DNA from: Hyphomicrobiales bacterium
GTDB taxonomy: Bacteria > Pseudomonadota > Alphaproteobacteria > Rhizobiales > Rhizobiaceae
Reading direction: 5' to 3'
Length of the DNA: 64,000 nucleotides
Assembly (NCBI GenBank): GCA_021775415.1
Contig: JAJFHV010000008.1
Span: 1 to 64,000 of the forward strand
The position numbers and the translations under genes are program-made. The notes below the pieces were generated by a model, which did not search any database, was not told the DNA's origin, and saw only the letters and a program-made list of their open reading frames with translations. Below are positions 50,481 to 63,850 of the stretch, in pieces (positions within the stretch are counted from its first letter, which is position 1; every line of letters starts with the position of its first letter).

Positions 50481-50670
50481 GGTTTTTGGATAGCGGAAAA
50501 TTGTTACTCATTCCAATAATTGCCACTCACGTTTTCGTCATAGATACAACCGGGTGAGGCAACCGACGATGTACGACGATATCGTTGCAAACATTGCAAG
50601 ATGTTGACTTTCATTCACGCGCCCACCCTGTAAAGATTGGTACTGACACGGATCGATGGAGACAATGCGA

Positions 50671-51198
50671 ATGACGACGCGAAGTGACGGATACAACCGC
50701 CTGTCGATTTTTGGGCATTGGATAAGTGCCATACTGATTGTTGCCCTCTTTCTCACCCATGAAGGGGACCGGGGTGGAATCAAATATTTTGTTCACGTGA
50801 GCTTCGGCGCAGTGGCTGGCCTGTTTTTGATGTGGCGGGTATGGCACCGGGCACGCGCCGGCATGACCAACAAACCCGACCAGCCCGCTCTGCTTAATCT
50901 GGTTTCGCAAATCGTGATGTGGGGATTGCTTGCAGCAACCGTGGTCGTGGTCATCACGGGCTACTTGCTACCGTGGACACGCGGCGCACCGCTGGATGTG
51001 TTGGGGCTGTTTGACATCCCATCACCGATTGCTGCGCATTACGGGTTTCATGAGTTTGTTGAAGAGGTCCACGACGTGTCGGGTCATGCGTTTTTACCGC
51101 TGGTGGGTTTGCATATTGTTGGCGCTCTTAAACACGCATTCTGGGACAGGGATGGTATTGCTGCCAGAATGTTCAAGCCGGTTTCCGGTGGAAAGTAG
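50671..51198 (+). CDS. Cytochrome b561 family protein (CybB-like)
   Basis: This 175-residue inner-membrane dihaem cytochrome b561 has four helices with histidines in FGHWISAIL, IKYFVHVSFGAVAG, HDVSGHAFLPLVGLHIVGALKH and neighbours. CybB proteins pass electrons from quinol to superoxide or to periplasmic redox partners. ATG 50671 is best placed relative to GGAG (nine bases). ATGs at 50656 and 50665 are in frame. It is divergent from the small exported protein gene at 50145. Confidence 0.88.
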   Translation: MTTRSDGYNRLSIFGHWISAILIVALFLTHEGDRGGIKYFVHVSFGAVAGLFLMWRVWHRARAGMTNKPDQPALLNLVSQIVMWGLLAATVVVVITGYLLPWTRGAPLDVLGLFDIPSPIAAHYGFHEFVEEVHDVSGHAFLPLVGLHIVGALKHAFWDRDGIAARMFKPVSGGK

Positions 51199-51231
51199 CC
51201 GCCCAGGTTTGTCTTTGAATGTGCTTGCAGT

Positions 51232-52146
51232 TCAATCAAGTTTTGGCTCGTAAAGTGCAGTAACCACGCCTGCATCCAACAATACATCGATATTCGGAAA
51301 CCACATTTGGCTGGCGTCAGTGTCAAACATCTTCGTCAGGAACCATGGCTTTATGTTACTGGCTGCGTATAGCTTGCGGTCGCGCTCCTGTTCAGCGGCA
51401 GGATCCGCATTGAGAACCTGATAGGTTGCATCAACCCGATATTGGTGAAATCCCAGTCGAGCCTCTGGTTTTAGCAGGCGCTCAATCCCGCCAATAAAAA
51501 CCGTAGTGCACGCGGAATTGCACTCTGATTCAACAAGGGTATTGAAACCATTTTCGTGGATCAGTTTTGACAAGCCCCTGGCTTCGTAAATATTTCCACC
51601 GGGGCTTGTAAGTATGACGGTTTGCATCTTGGGAAACTTTATCAGTAATGCGGCAAATTTCTTGGTGATCCCCAGTTCGATTGAACCGGTAAACACAAGG
51701 GCCTTTCCATCCGATGATGGAACAATGCTGTATTTTCCGGAACGCTCTTTTTCGGCACGCGTTTGAAAATTCTTGTCCACCTTGGTCGGCTGCGTCATGT
51801 ACCAAGCGTCAAGTGAGTAGCTGACGGTGAGCCAGAATGCGATCAGGGCGCCAAGCTGCGCACCCCAGAAATTCGCCATCGACCCCATGCTTTGAATGTG
51901 CATTTCTCCGGCTCGCACAACACCCACCACCTGCCAGATAAAGAATACACCATGAAAGAATATTGCCAGTACGATGACCAGACTATGGGACGCACCATAG
52001 TCGTTCCCCTCGGCTGGCTCGAGCAGGCCCTGCACCAGGAATATCAATACCCGCAACAACACCAGATTTACCCAGAACGACCAGGCAAATCCTTGCCGTC
52101 CATACCAGTGATCCGCAATGTAATTTCCGGTTTTCTGGGCTGACAT
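51232..52146 (-). CDS. Membrane protein with ClpP/crotonase-like periplasmic domain
   Basis: This 304-residue protein has an N-terminal region of three to four helices (AWSFWVNLVLLRVLIFLVQ, VIVLAIFFHGVFFIWQVVGVV, GALIAFWLTVSYSLDAWYM), followed by a soluble domain. That domain contains VILTSPGGNIYEARGLSKLIHENGFNTLVESECNSACTTVFIGG (key parts TSPGGN and the serine in ESECNSACT) and LGFHQYRVD. It is like the COG3904 clan of ClpP-fold periplasmic proteins. Protease activity is unproven. ATG 52146 was chosen; the upstream 48 residues are unlikely. Confidence 0.75.
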   Translation of the reverse strand: MSAQKTGNYIADHWYGRQGFAWSFWVNLVLLRVLIFLVQGLLEPAEGNDYGASHSLVIVLAIFFHGVFFIWQVVGVVRAGEMHIQSMGSMANFWGAQLGALIAFWLTVSYSLDAWYMTQPTKVDKNFQTRAEKERSGKYSIVPSSDGKALVFTGSIELGITKKFAALLIKFPKMQTVILTSPGGNIYEARGLSKLIHENGFNTLVESECNSACTTVFIGGIERLLKPEARLGFHQYRVDATYQVLNADPAAEQERDRKLYAASNIKPWFLTKMFDTDASQMWFPNIDVLLDAGVVTALYEPKLD

Positions 52147-52409
52147 ATCAGACTTGCCATCCTTATTTCCGGTAAAACTCGACCCTACAACCAGCAGGTA
52201 GCAACGAAACGAACAAACAGGATCGAAATGAATTAGTAATTTAATACGGATCAGGACAAAGGGATAGCCTGTTCCGGACAACCATACCACACCGAGTTAC
52301 TGGACCCCACACGGATCCTGAATCTCATTTCATTCCGACCCTGTTTGCTGGCGGGAGGACGGGGAGAAATAATTAGGGGCGACGCCCCCCGTCCAACGAG
52401 TTCAAAGCC

Positions 52410-53504
52410 TTACTTGGTAAGCCACGCCTGGAATTTCGCGTCGATGTCGTCGCGATTATCCGCCCAGAACTCGTAATTATAGAGCAGCGTGTTTTTTGCG
52501 TTGTTGGGATCAGTAGGCATATGGGGTGCCATATCAATACCCAGCACATCGTGTTTACCAACCAATGGCGCAGATGATGCACGGGCAGGTCCATAGGAAA
52601 TATACTTGGCCTGATCTGCAAGACGTTGCGTGGATGTTGCAAACTTCATGTAGTCCAGCGCCCGGGCCTGACGTTCTGGTGAAAGGCCGGTTGGAATGAT
52701 CCAGCCATCAATATCAAACACCTGTGCGTCCCAGAGCATACCAACCGGCTGCTTCTGCTCTTCAATCAGGGAAAACAGGCGGCCATTGTAGGTAGAGCCA
52801 ATTACAATTTCACCATCAGCAAGCAGCTGCGGTGTTTCCGCTCCCGCTGACCACCAGACCACTTTTTCCTTGATGGTGTCGAGTTTGGCAAGTGCCCGAT
52901 CTACGCCCTCCGGTGTACCAAGAACATTATAAACATCGGCCTTTGCAACACCGTCGCACATCAGCGCCCATTCAACATTGTTGATAGGACGTTTCTCAAG
53001 CGCGCGCTTGCCGGGATAGGCAGCAAGGTCGAACAGGTCACAAATGTCATCTGGTGGCGTGTCACCGACAAGATCCAACCGATAACCAACTGTAGTCGAA
53101 TAGACGATCTGTGGAATAAAGCATGGTGAAACAAGAAGTTCGCCAAAGTCCTCCGAAGCCGGCGTCCCATCTGGCGCGGCCGCAAGGTCACGGTCCGCAT
53201 CGATTTCGATTGCCAGACCTTCGTCGCAGGCACGTAGAGCATCTGAAGCGGTAACATCAACCACATCCCAGGTAACGTTTCCTGCTTCTTTCATCGCCCG
53301 TAGTTTGGAAACGGCCTCAGCAGCGGACTCATCATTGATGATGTTCACATCTGGATTACTCTTCATGTAAGGCTGATGATATGCATTGTTCTGAGAGTTC
53401 GAATACGCGCCTCCCCACGAAACAATAGTCATATCTTCTGCAACAGCTGCAGAAGAAGCAAGCGCCAGTGCGGCAGCTGAAAGCATCAGTGATTTGAGTT
53501 TCAT
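52410..53504 (-). CDS. ABC transporter substrate-binding protein, PotD-like (orphan)
   Basis: This 364-residue periplasmic binding protein has a signal peptide (KLKSLMLSAAALALASSAAVAE) and the SBP_bac_8 pattern of polyamine-type binders: TIVSWGGAYSNSQNNAYHQPY, TWDVVDVTASDALRACDEG, VIGSTYNGRLFSLIEEQ and FDIDGWIIPTGLSPERQARALDYMKF. No permease or ATPase gene follows. The next gene downstream (51232) is unrelated. The ligand is unknown, but polyamine or opine-like amines are typical. GGGAG is eight bases before ATG 53504. The divergent LysR gene at 53780 is its likely regulator. Confidence 0.9.
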   Translation of the reverse strand: MKLKSLMLSAAALALASSAAVAEDMTIVSWGGAYSNSQNNAYHQPYMKSNPDVNIINDESAAEAVSKLRAMKEAGNVTWDVVDVTASDALRACDEGLAIEIDADRDLAAAPDGTPASEDFGELLVSPCFIPQIVYSTTVGYRLDLVGDTPPDDICDLFDLAAYPGKRALEKRPINNVEWALMCDGVAKADVYNVLGTPEGVDRALAKLDTIKEKVVWWSAGAETPQLLADGEIVIGSTYNGRLFSLIEEQKQPVGMLWDAQVFDIDGWIIPTGLSPERQARALDYMKFATSTQRLADQAKYISYGPARASSAPLVGKHDVLGIDMAPHMPTDPNNAKNTLLYNYEFWADNRDDIDAKFQAWLTK

Positions 53505-53593
53505 AAGTTTTCTCCCGTTTGTTGAACTACCGAGGAATTTTTGATCTTTGCGCATTCCAGGTAGTTTGGTGCATTATATGGATTAGTTCTTTT

Positions 53594-53773
53594 GAGATAA
53601 TGCCGTATTTTCGATAGGTATTATCTCGTTTTTTGACAGGACCACGAAGAGCAAAATCTTGTACCCGAAGTCCCGCGAACTGAGCGCTGGAATTGGATGC
53701 AAGCCCAACGATCCCTTGAATTGATAGTAAATTATGTGCCATTATAAAAATGAATAGTTGTAATAGGTATTAT
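53594..53773. promoter_or_regulatory. LysR operator candidates: palindrome plus direct repeat
   Basis: GAGATAAT (53594-53601) and ATTATCTC (53620-53627) form a perfect 8-base inverted repeat with an 18-base spacer. ATAGGTATTAT occurs exactly at 53614-53624 and again at 53763-53773, just before the LysR start. Such a strong site plus a second site over the regulator's own promoter is the usual layout for LysR-type control of a divergent gene pair. Confidence 0.55.
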
Positions 53774-53779
53774 AAATAA

Positions 53780-54685
53780 ATGAATTCTTCGGGTTGGAAC
53801 CTTAACCTCCTGCGAGTATTTGCGGCGATCTACGAAGAAAGAACCCTCACCCGGGCTGCTGCGAAAGTCGGACTGAGTCAGCCGGCACTTAGCCATGCAC
53901 TCAAACGGCTGCGAGAAGCCTTGGATGACGAGCTTTTTGTGCGCCAGTCGGGTGTATATGTTCCTACCCGCAAATCCGAAGCGTTGGCACAGCCGATTTT
54001 GAAAGCGCTGGAAGCGTTGGGCAGCGCCCTGGAAAAAAACCAGAGCTTTGACCCACGAACCGCGTCAAAAACCTTCAGATTGGCCGTAAGCGATGTCGCG
54101 ACCCACACCATATTACCTGCTCTTGGACAATACATACACGAACAGGCACCTGGCGTTTTGTGCGTGGTTTCCCAAATTTCCTACCAGCACTATGAAAAAC
54201 AATTGCAAACCGGCGAAATTGACGTAGCCATCATTTTGCGCCGCCCACATCACACCGACATAAATGAGGAAATCCTGTTTGAAGAGTCCGTTGCATTTAT
54301 TGCCAGAAATGGGCACCCAAAAATCAAAACGCTGTCAAAACTGGACGGATTTGTGTCCGTTGATCATGTGATCGTAAACTTATTGGGTGAACCCAACACA
54401 TGGCTTGACGAAAAACTTGCGGAACTCGGGAAGAGCCGCAATGTCAAACTGGTTGTCCCGTATTTTGGTGCAGTGCCGGAAATCGTTTCAAAGACCGATC
54501 TGGTTGGCGTATTGCCACGTCGGTTGGCGAAACGGGCGACGAAGGAATATCCGGTAACACTATTTCCGCCACCGTTTGATTTTCCATCGGTTCATTTCAC
54601 CATGTGCTGGCATGCGCGACGACAACGTGATTTGGGGCTTCGCTGGTTCCGCTCGGCGATTTCACAGGCCTGCACCAGCTTTTAA
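53780..54685 (+). CDS. LysR-family transcriptional regulator, divergent from orphan binding-protein gene
   Basis: This 301-residue regulator has a LysR winged helix at 1-65 (NLLRVFAAIYEERTLTRAAAKVGLSQPALSHALKRLREALDDELF) and a NodD/LeuO-type effector domain (TFRLAVSDVATHTILPALG). The gene is transcribed away from the PotD-like binding-protein gene over a 275-base gap that contains repeated ATAGGTATTAT boxes. It probably controls that gene in response to the same ligand. This is inference from layout. Confidence 0.9.
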   Translation: MNSSGWNLNLLRVFAAIYEERTLTRAAAKVGLSQPALSHALKRLREALDDELFVRQSGVYVPTRKSEALAQPILKALEALGSALEKNQSFDPRTASKTFRLAVSDVATHTILPALGQYIHEQAPGVLCVVSQISYQHYEKQLQTGEIDVAIILRRPHHTDINEEILFEESVAFIARNGHPKIKTLSKLDGFVSVDHVIVNLLGEPNTWLDEKLAELGKSRNVKLVVPYFGAVPEIVSKTDLVGVLPRRLAKRATKEYPVTLFPPPFDFPSVHFTMCWHARRQRDLGLRWFRSAISQACTSF

Positions 54686-54707
54686 GATGACAGCCGTCTT
54701 GTTGGCC

Positions 54708-55295
54708 TCATGAGTATTTTCCACTTTTCGCCCCCATGATCAGAACCCAGAAATGGGTATAGCGGTCATTGCGACCGGAGGTGTTGAAGGCATAAGCGAG
54801 ACCTGCCAGCGTATAGCGCGATTTCAGCATATTTTTCCTGTGCTCGGGAGAATCAAGCCAGCCCTTAATTGCCTCATCGATTGAGCCGTAACCGACGCCT
54901 ATATTTTCGCCAGCTGAATCGTTGAATCCGGCGGAAAAAATCCGCGTCTTGAAGTTCGTTCCCTTGCCGATGTCGTGGCCATATTTTCCGGTAGTCCCCA
55001 TCATGTCAGCATGGCGTTGAGCGGCCTCCTGAAGGCGGGGATCCGTTTGAAAGCCGGGCAGGAAACGGCTCGCGCGCATCTGGTTCAGCTTGGCCAGACC
55101 ATCCCTCACATCAAATTGCAGTGGTTGCGCCGAGACTTCGGAGCGCAACCTGCGCCCGGCTTGACCGGACCTATCGCTGGTACAACCTTGAAGCATCGCA
55201 CCGCCTGACAGAAGCAACAGTGATCCGACTGTAATCACTTCACGCCGTGAGGGCTCAGTATCAGGTTTTTGAATTTGCCGTTTTGAATACGTCAT
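54708..55295 (-). CDS. CAP-domain (SCP/PR1-like) lipoprotein
   Basis: This 195-residue protein has a twin-arginine-like leader (EPSRREVITVGSLLLLSGG) and the lipobox MLQGC, so it is probably an exported lipoprotein. The CAP fold follows: LAKLNQMRASRFLPGFQTDPRLQEAAQRHADMM, GENIGVGYGSIDEAIKGWLDSPEHRKNML and THFWVLIMG. The CAP histidines (QRHADM, SPEHR) are present. Bacterial CAP proteins are secreted and have no settled function. Thirteen bases separate it from the LysR gene on the other strand. Confidence 0.88.
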   Translation of the reverse strand: MTYSKRQIQKPDTEPSRREVITVGSLLLLSGGAMLQGCTSDRSGQAGRRLRSEVSAQPLQFDVRDGLAKLNQMRASRFLPGFQTDPRLQEAAQRHADMMGTTGKYGHDIGKGTNFKTRIFSAGFNDSAGENIGVGYGSIDEAIKGWLDSPEHRKNMLKSRYTLAGLAYAFNTSGRNDRYTHFWVLIMGAKSGKYS

Positions 55296-55401
55296 GCAGG
55301 CAGAGTAATTGTTTGGGGTTAACAAAATCTCGTAATGCTGAGGATGATGCCCACCAGAGTGGCCAGAAACCAGATAGCGGATAGGCTAGCTGGAATTCCC
55401 G

Positions 55402-55426
55402 TTAATGACCCAAAGCGGGCATTGGA
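55402..55426. repeat. Palindromic intergenic element, copy 4 (half)
   Basis: CGTTAATGACCCAAAGCGGG then CATTG: a half-element sharing TGACCCAAAGCGG with copy 6 at 59316, and lacking a good left arm. It lies in the AT-rich gap before the broken cysteine-rich gene. Confidence 0.4.
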
Positions 55427-55531
55427 ACATTAGAACGAACATGTGCCAAGTTGGCACTAAGCTGCGGTTTGTATTAGACTACTGTTGATGAAGTGACCTC
55501 CAGTGCAATTGGAAGCTATCCTTAAGTTAAC

Positions 55532-57000
55532 ATGCAAAACAGCCCTATCCATCACGGCAGATTAATGCGCAATCTTTTTAATTTATTGTTTTTTAAAATT
55601 GTCTCAACAGGAATCGTACTATTTTCATTGCTACTTACATTTTCAAGTTTTTCATATAGCCAAGAATTTTTGAGCGTCGAACTGTATGCCGGATACAATC
55701 ATCAAACACGGAATGAAATTTGTAATTCAGGACCTTACTATGGAAGGGCGGATTTCAATTATGAACAAGATGGAGTAATAAATTTTTACGCTTGGTCAGA
55801 ACGCAACCAGTTTGTTTTAAATGAAATAATTAGGAGACCTAAATCTTCTGTTTGTGCTAAAATTGTTGCAACGAGTAAAATCAACGGAAAATTTAATGAT
55901 TTCAGTCAATTCTTTGGCTCTGCAATTGCAGAGCCTTTTCGCTTTTTTTCGTTGGTGAAGAGTTAGTTGATGTAGAACTTCGGAAGGCTTGCTGTTTTGA
56001 AGATGGTGGATATTGGGGCAACGTTGGTGTTGATGACCCCTGTCCGACCAATATTGATGCAGGCAGGGCGACAGCTAAGCCATCTTGCCAACCAGGTATG
56101 GCGTCTTCAATTCCAGCAACAGAAGGCTGCTGCATTGGAGGTGGATGCAAGAACATTCCCGTAAATGAATGTATCGATCTGGGAGGCGCATCACTGGGCC
56201 GTAGCTGTGAAGGCGAAGAGGATAGCGAGTGTCATTCCCTCACTGGTGCGTGTATGTTCATAGACGGCTGTGTTCCGCAGTTGACTGAACGGGAGTGTCT
56301 GTCTCGATCGGATCATCCAGCATTCATTAGAGGTGCGAGTTGTCCATCAAATGTGGGTGGGTGTTGTGACTCCCGAGGGAGGTGCGAACTAATATCCCAG
56401 ACAGCTTGCTTTGCGAAGAAAGGATCATTCTATGCAGACGGGTGTCCTGCTAACGGTTGTCCGGTAAATCTGGGTGCTTGTTATTCACTTTGTGCTGATG
56501 GAGAAACCAGCCTCTGCACCGAAAAGACACAGGACCAATGCTTGTTAGAAAACTCCCAAAACTAGTGGGCAGAAAGTCAATTTTGTCCTTTTGCCGGAAG
56601 TTGCCCAGAGCCCGATGCCTGTAAATCTATAGTTGGCTGTTGGCGATGGAGCAATGGAAACACTTCCTGTATCAGGCCGTCTCATATTGTAGAACATTAC
56701 CCGGTTGATGGAGAAAAGTTGGTTGGCGAATGGATTTGTTCTGGCGAACCATTTGATCAGTATCTAGAGGCATTTTTTGCCGACAATCCACCCCAAAGGG
56801 TGAAAGATATCAGCGATTTTGACGGTAGGCGAATATGTTTGAAAGACAATCTACAAGATTGTGCATCATACCTTTCTAACTTTGATCCAAGTAGCGGTAC
56901 AAACAGTCCTAATGACGTCGATATCGATTCAATTATGTGTAGTACTAGCCAGAACTGGTGTTGGGACAATGGTCATGACAATTTTCCGTGTTGTAATTAG
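55532..57000 (+). pseudogene. Broken secreted cysteine-rich tandem-repeat protein (frameshift and internal amber)
   Basis: The first frame (55532-55966) gives a signal peptide (VLFSLLLTFSSFSYSQE) and a 100-residue domain. A one-base slip back in the seven-T run at 55943-55949 carries it into an open frame that begins FVGEELVDVELRKACCFEDGG. That frame continues with four cysteine-rich repeats at about 56125, 56245, 56356 and 56473, pattern G-x-C-C-x4-G-x-C...C...G-x-C. The fourth repeat holds a TAG (56563-56565). After the TAG, the same frame runs on with cysteine-rich sequence to TAG 56998. The region is clearly AT-richer than its surroundings, which suggests acquired DNA. The alternatives are sequencing error, or programmed recoding. 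I do not know the function. Confidence 0.65.
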
Positions 57001-57090: not shown

Positions 57091-57951
57091 TCAATTGATA
57101 AAGAGCTCACTAAGTAATTCCGTTTGACGATTCGTTGATGCATTGCGCAGGGTAGCAAGAACCAATTGTCGCGAAATTTCATTCCTTTGTGACTTAATCA
57201 CTGCAATCCGGTTGTCTGCATAGCGGCGAATGTCCGGCTCGGGCAACAGAGTAAAACCAATCCCGTTTTTGACGCATTCCATAATTGCTTCGACGCTGTC
57301 GATGACGAGCACTCGTTTTCTTCTGCTAATGATAGGCTCTACGTACTTCGTAATCAGTTTGCCAATGCCTGAATCAGGCAGAAATTGAAGAAACTGCAAT
57401 TGCTCGTTCAATCTATCAGGAGATAAACCGCGATACTCTTCTGGAACTGCAAAAGCCAAGGATTCCTCGCATATTAAATGATAGGACAAACGAGGATCAG
57501 GTTTGGTCGAGGCAGTAACAATTGCACCATCGAGATCACCATTCACAAGCTGTGCTTCAAGAGTTTCCGACAGGCCGGTAGCAACTCCGAAGCTGGCATG
57601 GGGAGCGTGTTGTCTCGCGCTGATCAGAAAGTCCGGTAGCAGGCGGACGCTCGCCGTCATGACAAATCCCAGGCGGTATCGACCAGTTAGCTGATCGTTC
57701 GGGTCACAGGCAGCTTTCAGCGCATCTTCTGCGGTTAGAACAGACGCCGCGTGTTCACATATTGACCGACCCAGCGGTGTCAGTTTGGGTGGGCGAAAAG
57801 AGCGATCGAACAGCGCTACGCCGAGTTCTTTTTCCAGCGACTTCATCTGCATTGAGAGTGCAGAAAGTGTCATGTTCAAATGCTGGGCTGCTGTCACAAA
57901 TGAACCCACTTTTGCAATCTCGGAAAGTGTCTTGAGGGCACGGGTTTGCAT
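57091..57951 (-). CDS. LysR-family transcriptional regulator, divergent from desulfinase-like gene
   Basis: This 286-residue regulator has an N-terminal helix-turn-helix (LKTLSEIAKVGSFVTAAQHLNMTLSALSMQMKSLEKELGVALFDRS) and a LysR substrate-binding domain (GRYRLGFVMTASVRLLPDFL). It is transcribed away from the acyl-CoA-dehydrogenase-fold gene at 58054 with a 102-base gap rich in palindromes, and so probably controls it. The C-terminus ends TELLSELFIN. The effector is unknown; a sulfur compound or its CoA ester is an inference. Confidence 0.9.
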   Translation of the reverse strand: MQTRALKTLSEIAKVGSFVTAAQHLNMTLSALSMQMKSLEKELGVALFDRSFRPPKLTPLGRSICEHAASVLTAEDALKAACDPNDQLTGRYRLGFVMTASVRLLPDFLISARQHAPHASFGVATGLSETLEAQLVNGDLDGAIVTASTKPDPRLSYHLICEESLAFAVPEEYRGLSPDRLNEQLQFLQFLPDSGIGKLITKYVEPIISRRKRVLVIDSVEAIMECVKNGIGFTLLPEPDIRRYADNRIAVIKSQRNEISRQLVLATLRNASTNRQTELLSELFIN

Positions 57952-57952
57952 T

Positions 57953-58008
57953 AATTAAAACTTTCTGAATTTAAACTTCATTTTAATTCTATTGAATTGA
58001 ATATTCAA
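57953..58008. promoter_or_regulatory. Candidate LysR operators in the 57952-58053 divergent gap
   Basis: AATTAAAA (57953-57960) and TTTTAATT (57981-57988) are perfect 8-base inverted arms. The perfect 12-base palindrome TTGAATATTCAA lies at 57997-58008, 46 bases before the start of the desulfinase-like gene. The positions suit a LysR recognition and activation site pair. Confidence 0.5.
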
Positions 58009-58053: not shown

Positions 58054-59271
58054 ATGCGTGATCACATACAGGCGAAAGCAAGTGAACTGGCAGCGGTGTT
58101 CGCGAAGCGGGCGGCTCGGTGGGACAAGACAAGAGAGTATTGCTGGGAAAACGTTCAAGATCTTGCCGATGCTGGCATTATGGGAATGTCAATACCAACA
58201 GCCTACGGAGGTATGGGCGCATCTTACTACGATGTCGTTGTTGTTGTTGAGGAAATCGCCAGGGCATGCACACTTTCCGCCCGCATCATCGTGGAAGCCA
58301 ATATGGGCGCTATCAGCGCCATCATGTCGTTTGGAACGGAGGAGCAGAAAGCTATTTGCGCACCGTTGGTGCTGGCAGGTGACAAGCCTGCAATCTGTAT
58401 CACTGAGCCTGAGGCGGGCAGTGCTGCTTCACAAATGACCACGACAGCACGGCGGGTTGGCAAAGAGTTCATCATAAACGGCACCAAGCACTGGATAACT
58501 GGAGGTGGTGTCTCGAAGCTCTATCTGATTTTCGCACGGGTTCTTGATGAAGATGGCACCGAGCTTGGTATTGGCGGTTTCATCGTAATTTGCGACCCTT
58601 CCAAAGGAAGTTATCCCAAGGGATTTGAAGTTTTGGGACGTGAACACACACTCGGTCTGTGCGGTATGCCGGAAGCCGAACTGCGATTCACTGATCTCCA
58701 TGTCGATGAATCTTTGGCTGTCATCCCGCCATCTGGCTTCAAACACGGCTTTGCCCATTTGATGAATGCCTATAACAGCCAACGTGTTGGTGCTGGAACA
58801 ATCGCCATGGGTGTTGCTGCCGGTGCGGTTAATCACGCCAAGAATTACCTCAAACAACGACATCAGTTTGGCCGACCACTGGCAGAATTCCAGGGCCTCC
58901 AATGGATGCTGGCTGACATGGATGGCGGTGTTCATGCGTCGCGTCTGTTGTTACACGAGGCGGCCCGTTCGCGTGGCCAAAACAACAGCCCGTTTCCAGA
59001 TATGCTGATGGCGGCGCGGGCTAAGTTGTTCGCTTCCGAGATGGCCATAAAAGTAGTGAATGACGCTCTGCAGATGTTTGGTGCCCGTGGTTACAGTGAT
59101 CGGGAGCCACTGGAACGCATGTACCGCGATGTGCGCATGTTCACCATTGGCGGCGGCACTGCACAGATTCTGCGTACACAGGTGGCTGGACAGTTGCTTG
59201 GCATCAAGACACCGCAAAACAGCAACGGCTACCAACGAGTTGAAGCTGATGTTTTGGCGGAGCCTGTCTGA
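58054..59271 (+). CDS. acd: Acyl-CoA-dehydrogenase-fold protein, probable 3-sulfinopropionyl-CoA desulfinase
   Basis: This 405-residue FAD protein of the acyl-CoA dehydrogenase superfamily lacks a catalytic base at both known positions: Gln243 in AYNSQRVGAG and Gly366 in FTIGGGTAQILR. Advenella 3-sulfinopropionyl-CoA desulfinase has Gln246 and Gly366 there, and an essential Arg84. Here Arg77, in LSARIIVEANMGAISAI, takes the Arg place. Other shared blocks include ITEPEAGSAASQMTT and KHWITGGGVSKLYLIFARV. The predicted reaction is removal of sulfite from 3-sulfinopropionyl-CoA to leave propionyl-CoA. The gene is divergent from a LysR gene and convergent with an ABC importer. The residues come from memory of the published structure. 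Confidence 0.75.
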   Translation: MRDHIQAKASELAAVFAKRAARWDKTREYCWENVQDLADAGIMGMSIPTAYGGMGASYYDVVVVVEEIARACTLSARIIVEANMGAISAIMSFGTEEQKAICAPLVLAGDKPAICITEPEAGSAASQMTTTARRVGKEFIINGTKHWITGGGVSKLYLIFARVLDEDGTELGIGGFIVICDPSKGSYPKGFEVLGREHTLGLCGMPEAELRFTDLHVDESLAVIPPSGFKHGFAHLMNAYNSQRVGAGTIAMGVAAGAVNHAKNYLKQRHQFGRPLAEFQGLQWMLADMDGGVHASRLLLHEAARSRGQNNSPFPDMLMAARAKLFASEMAIKVVNDALQMFGARGYSDREPLERMYRDVRMFTIGGGTAQILRTQVAGQLLGIKTPQNSNGYQRVEADVLAEPV

Positions 59272-59358: not shown

Positions 59359-60900
59359 TTAGTCGCGCTGGCCCTGGATAACCCGATTAAGGATCATGGC
59401 GCAGAACAGAATGGCGAATCCGGCAAGAATGCCCTGACCAACGGATGAGTACTGCAACGCTTCCAGGACGTCTTCGCCAAGCCCCTTTGCGCCGATAAGG
59501 GACGCAACCACAACCATTGCAAGGCTCAGCATGATTGTCTGGTTTATACCCGCCAAAATCGAAGGCGCGGCCAAAGGTAAATCCACCTTGGTCAGGAGGT
59601 ACCATTTGGATGCACCGTAGGCGATTGCTGCCTCCCGGATCGATTCCGGTACACCGCGCATACCAAGTACTGTGAGACGTACAACAGGGGTTCCACCAAA
59701 AATCATGGTGGTGATGACCGCTGCCGGTTTGCCGACACTGAAAAATGCAATCACCGGGATCATGAATACGAAGGAAGGCATGGTCTGCATGAAGTCCATG
59801 ATCGGACGAATGATGGCATAAAACCGGGGACGACGAGCACAAAACAATCCAAGCGGTATGCCGAGAACAATCGAAATACAGGCGGCGGTTCCAAGCAAAG
59901 CCAATGTGGTCATGGCTTTTTCCCAAAATCCGAAAAGCCCCATATAGGCGAGGAATCCGGCGGAAGCTATTGCTGCGGTAAACCCTGCAGAAAGCCATGT
60001 AAGCAAAATAATGAAACTCGCAATAACCGGCCAAGGAGTTGAAACGAACAGCACTTCCAACCCATCCAGAACAACCCGGATTCCGTAGCTGATGAAGTCA
60101 AAGAGCCATTGTCCACTGGAACGGATAAACTCAAATAATTGTTCGACAAGTTTAATTGCAGTTAGCCGGATATTTCCGTCGGTCGGAAACTCTGCAAGCC
60201 AAGTGATTGTTCCTGGAAACGCGAAATGAATGATGCTGGTAGCGAATATTAGAAATACAAAAACCGAGCTGATTGCAGTTCGGGAGGGTTCCAGACCAGA
60301 CTTGATTGTCCGGTCAGAAAGCCACTGAGAGAATCGACTCTCCAAAACCGGATTGGCCATGATGCCCTCGGCAGTTTTAACAACTGCCAGCATCACTAGG
60401 CCGAACAAGGCAATCCAGATTGCATTTGCTTCGGCAAGAACCGCATCGGCTTGAATATCCGTAATTGCCTTTTCAAGCGATTCTATTGTCCTGCGGAAAA
60501 CGTCCACATTGTCGGCTTCTTTTTTTATCGCCGCCGCCAGCTGCTCATGCCTGAAGTCCAAGGTACCCTGAATCTGTGCGATCCGATCCCGTGCGCCTGC
60601 TCCAAGATCACCAAACATACCCCGGGCAATCTGGATAAAGGCAAAAGTCTCCAAAATGACAAAGGGAAGCCCCCAGTTCCACAGTCCCCGCATTCCGTAC
60701 CAGATCGGCCCCAGGAGAGCTGCAACCAGATTGAACGTCCATGTGAACTCAGCTTTTGAGCCAATCCGCGCAAACTGCGAACGATAAAAGTCCGCGCTGG
60801 TTTGAACGAATTCCTTCAGCAGTTCATCGCGACTTTCTGCGCGATTTTCCGCCAGCTCATCAGCACTTTGAGTAGCAATTGCAGGATCGGTTTGCATCAT
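59359..60900 (-). CDS. ABC transporter permease, ProW-like, with long N-terminal extension
   Basis: The C-terminal ~280 residues are a betaine/proline-type permease (BPD_transp_1): FGFWEKAMTTLALLGTAACISIVLGIPLG, MDFMQTMPSFVFMIPVIAFF, and the EAA loop RGVPESIREAAIAYGASKWYLLTKVDLPLAAPSIL. Unlike ProW (about 350 residues), this 513-residue protein carries an extra N-terminal part. That part has a soluble start, a DUF2628-like pair of helices (about 50-92, WTFNLVAALLGPIWYGMRGLWNWG), and a coiled coil (about 105-155, including AIKKEADNVDVFRRTIESLEKAI). Its ATG is overlapped by the stop of the ATPase gene. The substrate is probably a betaine-like osmolyte. Confidence 0.88.
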   Translation of the reverse strand: MMQTDPAIATQSADELAENRAESRDELLKEFVQTSADFYRSQFARIGSKAEFTWTFNLVAALLGPIWYGMRGLWNWGLPFVILETFAFIQIARGMFGDLGAGARDRIAQIQGTLDFRHEQLAAAIKKEADNVDVFRRTIESLEKAITDIQADAVLAEANAIWIALFGLVMLAVVKTAEGIMANPVLESRFSQWLSDRTIKSGLEPSRTAISSVFVFLIFATSIIHFAFPGTITWLAEFPTDGNIRLTAIKLVEQLFEFIRSSGQWLFDFISYGIRVVLDGLEVLFVSTPWPVIASFIILLTWLSAGFTAAIASAGFLAYMGLFGFWEKAMTTLALLGTAACISIVLGIPLGLFCARRPRFYAIIRPIMDFMQTMPSFVFMIPVIAFFSVGKPAAVITTMIFGGTPVVRLTVLGMRGVPESIREAAIAYGASKWYLLTKVDLPLAAPSILAGINQTIMLSLAMVVVASLIGAKGLGEDVLEALQYSSVGQGILAGFAILFCAMILNRVIQGQRD

Positions 60901-61958
60901 GATGTCTCCGTTCCTTCAACAACCGTACGAAGCAGGTCACTGCGTGTAATGACCCCAACACGCTTGCCTTTTCCATCAGCTACAGCCATCGGTTTTTCTG
61001 AGGTAATTGCATGCTCAATAAGCACGCTGAGGGATGCATCCTCGTTGAATGTCTTTGCAGTCTTTGCCAGAGTGCCATTGGTTGATTCAAAAGCCTTGAG
61101 CTTTTGCATTACGGCATGGGCTCGCACGACTTTCAGTCTGGAAATGCCGGCAACAAAATCTGCCACGTAATCATCTGCCGGGTTCAACACGATATCTTCC
61201 GGAGTTCCCGTTTGAACCACGCGCCCATCACGCATGATGGCGATCCGGTCACCGATACGCACTGCCTCATCCAAGTCGTGAGTAATGAAAACGGTTGTCT
61301 TGTTCATCTGAGAGGCAAGCTTCATGAACTCATTCTGCAATTGTCTGCGTATCAGCGGGTCAAGCGCACTGAACGGCTCATCCATCAAAAGAATTTCAGG
61401 ATCCGCTGCAAGCGCGCGTGCAAGCCCCACACGCTGCTGCATCCCACCAGAAAGTTCATGGGCAAACTTGTTACCCCAGCCGGTCAGTTCAACAAGATCA
61501 ATTGTGCGTTCAGCAATCTCGATGCGTTCGTTCTTGTTTATGCCGCGTATCTCAAGCGGCATGGCGACGTTATCAAGCACCGAGCGGTGGGGCATAAGTC
61601 CGAAATTCTGGAACACCATGGAGATATGTTCGTTTCGGTATTTTCTAAGCACATCCGGCTGCATTGCCATGATGTCCTCACCGTTTACAACGATTTTGCC
61701 ATCTGTCGGTTCAAGCAGCCGATTGACGTGACGGACCAGCGTTGATTTTCCACTGCCGGAAAGTCCCATTACACAGAAAATTTCACCAGGATTGATACTC
61801 ATACTCGCGTCGGCTACGCCAACAACGCACCCATACTTTTCAAGCACCTGTTTTTTTGAAAGCCCATTCGAGCGAACATCAGCAAGCGCTTCATTGGCCG
61901 CATTGCCAAAAATTTTCCAAACGCCGCTAATTTCAATGGCATATCCGCTTTGGCTCAT
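60897..61958 (-). CDS. ABC transporter ATP-binding protein, ProV-like with CBS domains
   Basis: This 353-residue ATPase of the glycine betaine/proline (ProV/OpuAA) type has Walker A GLSGSGKST at 65-73, the Q loop VFQNFGLMPHRSVLDN, the signature LSGGMQQRVGLARAL and Walker B ILLMDEPFSALDPL. The TTVFITHDLDEAVRIGDRI region follows. C-terminal CBS sequence (KPMAVADGKGKRVGVITRSDL) is the osmotic or ionic-strength sensor known in this family. The N-terminal 25 residues (SGVWKIFG...ALADVRSNGLSK) are ProV-like. ATG 61958 was chosen over TTG 61970. It overlaps the permease gene by four bases. Confidence 0.92.
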   Translation of the reverse strand: MSQSGYAIEISGVWKIFGNAANEALADVRSNGLSKKQVLEKYGCVVGVADASMSINPGEIFCVMGLSGSGKSTLVRHVNRLLEPTDGKIVVNGEDIMAMQPDVLRKYRNEHISMVFQNFGLMPHRSVLDNVAMPLEIRGINKNERIEIAERTIDLVELTGWGNKFAHELSGGMQQRVGLARALAADPEILLMDEPFSALDPLIRRQLQNEFMKLASQMNKTTVFITHDLDEAVRIGDRIAIMRDGRVVQTGTPEDIVLNPADDYVADFVAGISRLKVVRAHAVMQKLKAFESTNGTLAKTAKTFNEDASLSVLIEHAITSEKPMAVADGKGKRVGVITRSDLLRTVVEGTETS

Positions 61959-62046
61959 GGTGTAGACCAACCCTGTTTGCGGTTGTGTTCAGGTGGTGTG
62001 GTGCCCGAAACCCTCCGGGCACCATAAGTATTGTTATTGCAAAAAC

Positions 62047-63006
62047 CTAGAGGCCAAGCCAACCGTCTACACGGTCAGAGTTTGCAGCCACCCATGCTTT
62101 GGCAACTTCACCAGCGGATTTGCCGCTTTCAATCTCGTAGGCAAAAGAAGACACATCTTCACCGGTGAGTTTGATGTTTTTCAACAAATCAACGATCGCA
62201 GGTGAGCGCTCAGCCAATGATTTTGAATAGGCGATCTGAACCTGTTTCAAAGCATCTTCGGTCATGACCTTGGAGTTTTCATACCAGTTCGGATCCTCAG
62301 AAGGCTGTAAGGCTTTGTAATTTGCCGGATCGAACGGAGGCTCCTCCAAACGAACAACATCATGCTGGAACCAGATCGCATGTGGCGAATAACAGTAGAA
62401 CGCATACCCGATGCCCTTTTTGATGGAATCTCCAACGGTTGCTGTCATTACCGACTGGTCTGCCCGGATTGGATCCATGAACGGTAGTAATCCATAGTCA
62501 CGAACTTTCACCTGATTCACGTTTGCAGATGCCCAACCTGGAGCACCGACCCAAATTTCACCTTTACCGTTGCCGTCGGAATCCATCAACTTGGCGATCT
62601 CGGGACGAGCAAGGTCAAAGATTGATGTAACCCCGTTTGTTTCAGAAAAATTCTTCGAAACACAAAAGCTCTGTTTGCCCTCGTATGGGTTTTCCGAAAG
62701 TGCAACATTACCAGTTCCATCGACATATTTATCGGTGAAGCTTTTCTGGTTTGGAAGCCAGACATCCGGATGCACATCAATGTCACCCTTGCCCGAGTCC
62801 ATGGCAGCAAAAATCGCTGCATTGTCACCAGGGACAAGATCGGCTTCACCGCCGATACGGCTAGTCACAATTTCCTGGATAAGATGTGCGATTGCCTGCG
62901 CACCAGTCCAGGCCGGGGCTCCGATGTTCACCTTCTCCGCTGCAAATGCGGCCGATGAAACGGACATGGTGAGCGCAAAAAGCGCTCCTGCTATTGTTTT
63001 TTTCAT
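62047..63006 (-). CDS. Glycine betaine/DMSP-type ABC substrate-binding protein, ProX-like
   Basis: This 319-residue OpuAC-family periplasmic binding protein has a signal peptide (MKKTIAGALFALTMSVSSAAFA) and a mature domain with KVNIGAPAWTGAQAIAHLIQEIV, GDIDVHPDVWLPNQ and EIWVGAPGWASANVNQVKV. Tryptophans and tyrosines in these blocks could form the aromatic cage that binds trimethylammonium or dimethylsulfonium groups. Betaine and DMSP share such sites, and the ligand is not determined. It is the promoter-proximal gene of the importer, 89 bases before the ATPase gene. Confidence 0.9.
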   Translation of the reverse strand: MKKTIAGALFALTMSVSSAAFAAEKVNIGAPAWTGAQAIAHLIQEIVTSRIGGEADLVPGDNAAIFAAMDSGKGDIDVHPDVWLPNQKSFTDKYVDGTGNVALSENPYEGKQSFCVSKNFSETNGVTSIFDLARPEIAKLMDSDGNGKGEIWVGAPGWASANVNQVKVRDYGLLPFMDPIRADQSVMTATVGDSIKKGIGYAFYCYSPHAIWFQHDVVRLEEPPFDPANYKALQPSEDPNWYENSKVMTEDALKQVQIAYSKSLAERSPAIVDLLKNIKLTGEDVSSFAYEIESGKSAGEVAKAWVAANSDRVDGWLGL

Positions 63007-63088: not shown

Positions 63089-63850
63089 TCATGGTTGTGT
63101 CGGCAAAAAGTCTCCGATGATGGTATTGAACAAATCTGGTTTTTCCATGTGAACGTTGTGGGCACAGTTTGGAACAACGGCCAGTGCGCTGCCGCTGATC
63201 CCCCGCCACAATGCTTCAGGCTGACTCCAGCCGTAGGATCGATCGTTATCGCCCCAAACTACCAAAGTCTCTGATTTGATATTCGCAAGATTGGCCCGGC
63301 CATCCCACGTCTCCCAAGCTGAAAGGCTCGCCAATGCTCCCTGCATGCTTGCTTTCATGCCGAGTGAAACACATGTCGGGTAGCCACCTGCTTTTTCACC
63401 CGCAAGAAACCAGGTGGCCGCAATCCGCCTCACAGAGCTTTCCAGTCCGTCATTTTGCAGGCGTAAACGTGATGCTTCAATTGTCTCGAACCGATCCGGT
63501 AGCGCGCCCACAGGACCCGTGCCGTAACAGATCAGGTTTTGAACTCTTTCCGGCGCAATTGCAGTCATCGCCTGTACGATCATACCGCCCATTGAATGAC
63601 CCAGAAGATGAAACCGCTTGATGCCAAGGTTGAGAAGACTTTCCAGAACCTGATTTGCAAACCCTGTGATTGTATTTGGGGCTTCCAGGTTTGCACTGTC
63701 GCCAAAGCCTGGAAGGTTGGGAGCGAGTACCTCAAACCGGTCTTGAAAATATGCTATCTGCTCTCGCCAAATCTCCGCACCGGCGAGGTACCCATGGATT
63801 AACACCAATGGGAACCCGCTTCCAGAACGTTCAATGACCAGCTGGTTCAT
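63089..63850 (-). CDS. Alpha/beta hydrolase
   Basis: This 253-residue cytosolic alpha/beta hydrolase has Ser86 in the elbow HLLGHSMGGMIVQ. Asp203 is likely in VVWGDNDRSYGWSQ, and His231 in PNCAHNVHMEKPDLF. The oxyanion motif is HGYLAGAEIW. The family includes esterases, lactonases and C-C hydrolases, and no substrate can be read from sequence. Its ATG overlaps the stop of the D-cysteine desulfhydrase-like gene (ATGA), so the two are co-translated. The ABC importer lies 82 bases downstream. Confidence 0.88.
   Translation of the reverse strand: MNQLVIERSGSGFPLVLIHGYLAGAEIWREQIAYFQDRFEVLAPNLPGFGDSANLEAPNTITGFANQVLESLLNLGIKRFHLLGHSMGGMIVQAMTAIAPERVQNLICYGTGPVGALPDRFETIEASRLRLQNDGLESSVRRIAATWFLAGEKAGGYPTCVSLGMKASMQGALASLSAWETWDGRANLANIKSETLVVWGDNDRSYGWSQPEALWRGISGSALAVVPNCAHNVHMEKPDLFNTIIGDFLPTQP

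Follow-up and report, generated by a model that had tools for sequence, protein, structure and literature searches.

Does the acd gene of this alphaproteobacterium code for one more acyl-CoA dehydrogenase, as the fold of its product would suggest, or for an enzyme that releases sulfite from 3-sulfinopropionyl-CoA (3SP-CoA)? We have analyzed the gene within its window, the whole stretch of 64,000 nucleotides of contig JAJFHV010000008.1 studied here, and in the genomes of relatives (L and G numbers are our labels for loci and genomes). Relabelling acd would uncover a sulfite-releasing metabolism that is otherwise masked as 'acyl-CoA dehydrogenase'.

The acd gene product

The reading frame starts with ATG and runs without interruption (Table 1). 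Its product has the N-terminal, middle and C-terminal domains of acyl-CoA dehydrogenases, all above the Pfam cut-offs. The NCBIfam equivalog NF042439 (3-sulfinopropanoyl-CoA desulfinase) matched it with 647 bits for a cut-off of 600, over positions 1-378 of the 379 of the profile. The runner-up model, acryloyl-CoA reductase AcrC, gave 263 bits for a cut-off of 640. The chain of AcdDPN7 (residues 11-395) scored 650.4 bits on NF042439, so that the acd protein fits this profile about equally well. The nearest solved structures were 5af7 and 5ahs, which are one sequence (449.7 bits, with the next at 198 bits). In PMC8360864, a figure legend gives 5AHS as a sulfinopropionyl-CoA desulfinase and the references name Advenella mimigardefordensis DPN7. 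The host genome (97% complete) contains ten matches to NF042439 and acd is the only one above the cut-off.

An earlier note on this DNA had proposed a probable 3-sulfinopropionyl-CoA desulfinase and had held that a plain 'acyl-CoA dehydrogenase' label would be wrong. As far as the sequence can tell, our analysis supports the first proposal, with the profile passed and three diagnostic residues matching. We agree with the second as well, given the desulfinase equivalog and the lack of an acid at either Glu site. The protein is very probably a 3SP-CoA desulfinase of the AcdDPN7 family, which would release sulfite and propionyl-CoA. The family is already known and acd is a further member of it.

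Table 1. Features of the acd region in the window.
Feature	Coordinates	Strand	Evidence or remarks
LysR-type regulator, probable regulator of acd	57091..57951	-	Pfam HTH_1 and LysR_substrate
LysR-type box 1, TTAA-N7-TGAA	57955..57969	.	one mismatch to TTCA-N7-TGAA; holds T-N11-A
LysR-type box 2, ATTC-N9-GAAT	57986..58002	.	exact; holds T-N11-A
acd, probable 3-sulfinopropionyl-CoA desulfinase, 405 aa	58054..59271	+	NF042439, 5af7/5ahs match, residues
ABC permease, choline/glycine-betaine class, convergent with acd	59359..60900	-	best NCBIfam 245.6 bits, below the cut-off of 363
ABC ATPase, betaine/proline/choline family	60897..61970	-	TIGR01186 359.5 bits, cut-off 326.6
OpuAC-type periplasmic binding protein	62047..63006	-	PF04069 163.6 bits
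alpha/beta hydrolase	63089..63850	-	homologs near acd: L012 53%, L059 51%, L061 44%

Active site residues

The earlier note had suggested an alignment with the Advenella enzyme. In this alignment (MAFFT, nearly full length) 218 of 384 columns were identical, that is 57%, and Arg77, Cys115, Gln243 and Gly367 of acd were found opposite Arg84, Cys122, Gln246 and Gly366 of AcdDPN7. The placement of Arg77 at the position of the desulfinase Arg84, made before from the sequence of acd, was thus confirmed. Both sites of the catalytic Glu had also been described as altered; Gln243 stands and so does a Gly at the other site, but this residue is Gly367 and not Gly366. In the acd protein the medium-chain Glu of the Y-E-G motif is matched by Gly367, within the stretch I365-G366-G367-G368-T369, and Gly366 stands next to that column, with Ala365 at the matching place in Advenella. 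According to the alignment, a catalytic Glu or Asp is absent from the acd protein at the medium-chain and isovaleryl sites. Arg84, Cys122 and Gln246 of AcdDPN7 are residues that we take to have known roles in the desulfinase. In PMC8360864, the desulfinase chemistry is described as an AGG motif that replaces YEG and an attack on the sulfino group.

The residues are strongly conserved. In the 85 aligned orthologs (80 relatives from species genomes plus five from family genomes) Arg77, Gln243 and Gly367 were invariant and Cys115 was present in 84, and all four were kept in the eight further loci of the phylum sample (8/8). This makes chance an improper explanation for the residue pattern of acd. 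Two orthologs, L036 and L051, carry one stop each within the stretch aligned to the acd protein. The own genome has nine further homologs, and seven of these were aligned as controls. Four paralogs (L082, L084, L085 and L088) had Glu in the 367 column and L087 had Asp, while L083 had Ala there and Glu in the 243 column, which is the isovaleryl arrangement. L086 was too short for the 367 column. An acid at the 243 or the 367 column was therefore found in 6/7 paralogs, the seventh being without coverage of one of the sites. None of the seven had Arg at the 77 column, with other residues in six and a gap in L088.

Proposed reaction and origin of the substrate

In the reaction that we infer, the acyl-CoA would be bound in the acyl-CoA dehydrogenase fold of the acd protein. 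There would be no base for removal of the alpha-proton, since both Glu sites of its relatives are occupied by Gln243 and Gly367. The enzyme would attack the sulfino group of 3SP-CoA to give sulfite and propionyl-CoA, with Arg77 as the likely sulfino-binding residue. Activation of 3-sulfinopropionate would be carried out in the host by succinyl-CoA synthetase, which is invoked because no CoA-transferase ortholog was found in the host genome (best match 37%, with the L010 copy as query and not the Variovorax Act). The propionyl-CoA could be taken up by a protein of the methylmalonyl-CoA mutase family, and a PF01642 mutase was found in the host genome with 800.5 bits. A SoeABC sulfite dehydrogenase was also considered; its one Pfam DmsC match (39.3 bits, cut-off 22.3) is too unspecific to claim it.

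In Advenella and Variovorax, PMC6370202 and PMC5373536 describe a CDO-like dioxygenase, Mdo, that oxidises 3-mercaptopropionate to 3-sulfinopropionate, and SucCD (used by Advenella) or Act (Variovorax), which convert 3-sulfinopropionate to 3SP-CoA for the desulfinase. From the same papers, the act gene of Variovorax (locus tag 05450) adjoins acdA (05440). MDO is counted among the cysteine dioxygenase family in PMC10966181. We found no CDO_I match in the host genome, in a search with Pfam PF05995 alone that was uncalibrated on a known Mdo. CDO_I was present in 3 of 121 genomes of the family (G016, G032 and G071) and in none of the six of them with the desulfinase. Among 14 desulfinase genomes searched directly, a set that excludes the 80 source genomes of the kept relatives, it was found in one (G495) and not in the other 13. 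With no CDO_I dioxygenase in the host or in these 13 genomes, we infer the physiological substrate by homology only. We have looked in the host for the pathway from 3-mercaptopropionate through 3-sulfinopropionate known from Advenella and Variovorax, and found neither an upstream CDO_I dioxygenase nor an ortholog of the L010 CoA-transferase.

In this respect the host differs from the bacterium with AcdDPN7, and there is no CoA-transferase beside its acd. AcdA of Variovorax paradoxus TBEA6 is proposed to perform the same step, and we liken it to acd by role and cluster, not by sequence. Its cluster has mdo and act, unlike the window, although the adjacent act can be compared with the CoA-transferases found near acd in other loci (see next section).

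Uptake of 3-sulfinopropionate, or of a precursor of it, from outside would need no ThDP/aminotransferase route of the kind discussed below. Transporters of several kinds occur near acd loci. In five Ruegeria records (L025, L027, L030, L041 and L045) the gene beyond lysR resembles, by eye, a DASS/sodium-sulfate symporter. Such a DASS-like transporter could plausibly carry analogues of succinate, 3-sulfinopropionate among them. Sulfite or sulfate exporters (TauE/SafE, and YeiH, by eye) were seen at 2-11 kb from acd in 2, 8 and 3 of the 85 loci, an uncontrolled count that says little.

Recurrent neighbours of acd

We have counted the neighbours of acd over 85 loci (the 80 kept relatives and five regions) by direct tblastn. 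This count replaced an earlier ORF-based clustering of neighbours, by which acd itself was recovered from 71 of the 81 sources (the window plus 80 loci). A class III CoA-transferase with 56-100% identity to that of L010 was located near acd in 11 of the 85 loci (L005, L010, L014, L016, L038, L046, L069, L075, L152, L153 and L154). Five further loci gave weaker matches only (32-36%). The CoA-transferases of L010 and L075 matched seven NCBIfam models and reached the cut-off of none of them. A ThDP enzyme of ~540 aa also appeared near acd in 11/85 loci, seven of them with the CoA-transferase as well. It is the next gene on the same strand in nine (L003, L005, L010, L011, where it is cut by the contig end, L012, L014, L016, L038 and L152) and has other arrangements in L019 and L046. 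Besides, after acd there is a further copy in L161 (55%) and a 69-aa match in L017, and in G033 a fragment lies beside acd at a contig end, with the full copy on another contig. The ThDP enzyme of L010 resembles acetolactate synthases and did not reach the cut-off of any of the best 25 of 54 models (at best 365 of 509 bits). An aspartate-aminotransferase-like gene is inserted between the ThDP gene and the CoA-transferase in L005, L010 and L014 (3/85); the L005 copy reached 557 bits for a cut-off of 617. The gene orders were acd-ThDP-AT-CoAT, acd-ThDP-CoAT and CoAT-acd-ThDP (AT, aminotransferase; CoAT, CoA-transferase). This variation of the order among loci argues for a putative functional link of acd, the ThDP enzyme and the CoA-transferase, beyond mere shared ancestry.

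The co-occurrence of the two genes by genome was considered too. At E <= 1e-100 the ThDP enzyme was found in five of the six desulfinase genomes and in 8 of the 121 overall (hypergeometric values 1.7e-6 by genome and 1.5e-5 by genus). As evidence this is weakened by gene order, and we have relied on adjacency instead. Actually, in G000, G110 and G079 the ThDP gene is on a different contig from acd and in another cluster (labels by eye), G009, G066 and G109 have it without a desulfinase above the cut-off, and in G114, which has acd, no close ThDP homolog was found (29% at best). The ThDP genes adjacent to acd and the others did not form separate clades. The ThDP homolog of the host genome reaches only 47% identity, on a contig other than that of acd. 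By eye, members of this ThDP family lie beside OpgC/OpgG/OpgH-like genes in L148 (10188-11870, contig C12 of the own genome), L149, L150 and L158, and in the host genus the same cluster also has an MTA phosphorylase and a radical SAM gene.

These neighbours would allow a different origin of the substrate. The alphaproteobacterial desulfinase might end a route of aminotransferase, ThDP decarboxylase and CoA-transferase (or SucCD) that starts from a sulfinate analogue of glutamate and not from 3-mercaptopropionate. Homocysteine sulfinate would be converted to 2-oxo-4-sulfinobutyrate, 3-sulfinopropanal, 3-sulfinopropionate and 3SP-CoA, from which the desulfinase would form propionyl-CoA and sulfite. 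The sulfino group would take the place of the distal carboxylate of glutamate, 2-oxoglutarate, succinic semialdehyde and succinate. In PMC11396700, sulfino is given as a bioisostere of carboxyl, and homohypotaurine is turned into 3-sulfinopropionic acid by GABA transaminase and succinic semialdehyde dehydrogenase. The ThDP enzyme could equally be a relative of acetolactate synthases with another role. We regard the route as rather unlikely, and the case is weaker for the host itself, because its ThDP homolog is only distantly similar and located elsewhere. If the ThDP enzyme and the aminotransferase do feed acd, they would form an unrecognised bacterial route from organic sulfinates to propionyl-CoA and sulfite, and the operons of L005, L010 and L014 make it directly testable. 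The literature searched, mostly titles and the starts of abstracts, contained no description of a link between ThDP enzyme and acd. The main papers on the desulfinase were outside that search and may already list alphaproteobacterial homologs.

One more arrangement was seen in the same-genus genome (L155:6205-8540). A PALP-type PLP enzyme that resembles, by eye, a D-cysteine desulfhydrase or cysteate sulfo-lyase follows acd after 35 bp on the same strand. On the other side of acd there are a TRAP-type DctM permease and a TAXI binding protein (the latter by eye).

Phylogeny and alternative readings

In a FastTree phylogeny the 95 desulfinase-type sequences, among them AcdDPN7, all fell into one clade with a support of 0.77, which is a modest test as the outgroup consisted of six paralogs of one genome, the own one. 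This clade of moderate support bears on the reading of acd as an ordinary acyl-CoA dehydrogenase with an acid at a third site. The overall fold and the domains would suit such an enzyme, and the base can move, as isovaleryl-type enzymes show. Like acd, isovaleryl-CoA dehydrogenase has no Glu in the medium-chain column. However, its Glu is placed elsewhere, and the paralog L083 with that arrangement has it in the 243 column, where acd and all its orthologs have Gln, together with Gly at 367 as in the desulfinase. AcrC and the short-chain acyl-CoA dehydrogenases also have the fold in common with acd, which stays far under the AcrC cut-off. Taken with the single clade, these data leave an ordinary dehydrogenase scarcely credible.

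A second alternative keeps the desulfinase chemistry and changes the substrate, which in Alphaproteobacteria would be some other sulfino-acyl-CoA (longer, branched or substituted) of which 3SP-CoA is a mere analogue. The tree offers an argument for it. The acd protein is inside a clade of 81 sequences (support 0.986), and AcdDPN7, the sole biochemically known sequence used, falls outside and clusters weakly (0.572) with L163, L089, L090 and L091. That position leaves room for a shifted substrate, though the active-site residues are equal. The lack of CDO_I matches in 13 of the 14 desulfinase genomes points in the same direction, and so do neighbourhoods unlike the published Advenella cluster, with the ThDP enzyme and the aminotransferase in some of them. 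On the other hand, acd shares all four active-site residues, and about the profile score, with the characterised AcdDPN7, and the class III CoA-transferases near acd also speak against a different substrate. We consider such a shift improbable, and a desulfinase acting on 3SP-CoA is the reading that we prefer.

Distribution and spread

A desulfinase above the cut-off was present in 6 of the 121 genomes from the family of the host and in 9 of 397 in the phylum sample, and both counts include the own genome. We have also scanned 84,980 species genomes with a pattern, which yielded 232 candidate stretches; 228 of these were relatives, close or distant. From them we kept the best 80, with identities to the acd protein of 69-80%. 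The earlier note had described the reaction as rare. With these numbers 'rare' does not hold and patchy is the better description. Most of the relatives come from taxa that we take to belong to Rhodobacterales or Hyphomicrobiales, and L036, L042 and L049 are by title MAGs of Gammaproteobacteria or Arenicellales. Genes of the desulfinase family are thus spread over Alphaproteobacteria.

The closest relative of acd was L001, from a Rhodobacteraceae MAG (79.7%). The copy of the same-genus genome was only 70.1% identical and had rank 78 of 100 (a number that includes AcdDPN7 and the six paralogs). A third genome of the host genus, G009, had no match above the cut-off. As a reference we compared an alanyl-tRNA synthetase (label by eye) over ten genomes, with no named Rhodobacterales among them. 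The protein of Nitratireductor sp. XY-223 (L038) was 74% identical to that of the own genome, the best of the ten, and 63-65% identical to those of three genomes of family f17. The Acd proteins of these three genomes are 72-76% identical to acd, closer than the same-genus copy. The synthetase comparison suggests that the host is nearer to Nitratireductor than to f17. Together with the patchy occurrence, the disagreement between the Acd proteins, closer in f17 than in the same genus, and the alanyl-tRNA synthetase suggests a horizontal spread of acd.

Regulation and other genes in the window

The lysR gene and acd diverge across 102 bp, and 69 of the 85 loci have a LysR homolog that likewise diverges from acd, across a gap of 40-250 bp. 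The LysR protein probably regulates acd. The usual form of LysR boxes is T-N11-A. We have searched the 70 intergenic regions (69 divergent loci and the window) for the two patterns of Table 1 and compared the counts with single-base shuffles, which overstate the enrichment since the patterns were picked from the same regions and the regions are related. TTCA-N7-TGAA was exact in 30/70 regions (shuffles: mean 0.23, maximum 2) and, when one mismatch was allowed, was present in 59 (shuffles 4.34). ATTC-N9-GAAT was exact in 14/70 (shuffles: mean 0.13) and with one mismatch in 55, where many of the matches coincided with box 1 (median offset 2). A LysR gene is also near the desulfinase in Advenella. 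According to PMC5373536 it is located upstream of both mdo and acd, and growth on DTDP is impaired when lysR and xre are deleted together. The difference is that in the window lysR is directly divergent from acd.

The eight ORFs at 50656-57000 showed no evident relation to acd in a Pfam scan. Among them, the small ORFs at 56098-56565, clearly cysteine-rich, and 56719-57000 (+) have no Pfam match, and the same is true of 55532-55966. At the other side of acd, the link of the ABC transporter genes and of the hydrolase to acd is uncertain, and such neighbours alone give no indication of a sulfinate. Homologs of the ABC permease were found near acd in L061 (65%) and L023 (57%). The alpha/beta hydrolase appeared near acd in four loci, in varying order and beside a betaine-type ABC or TRAP set (by eye).
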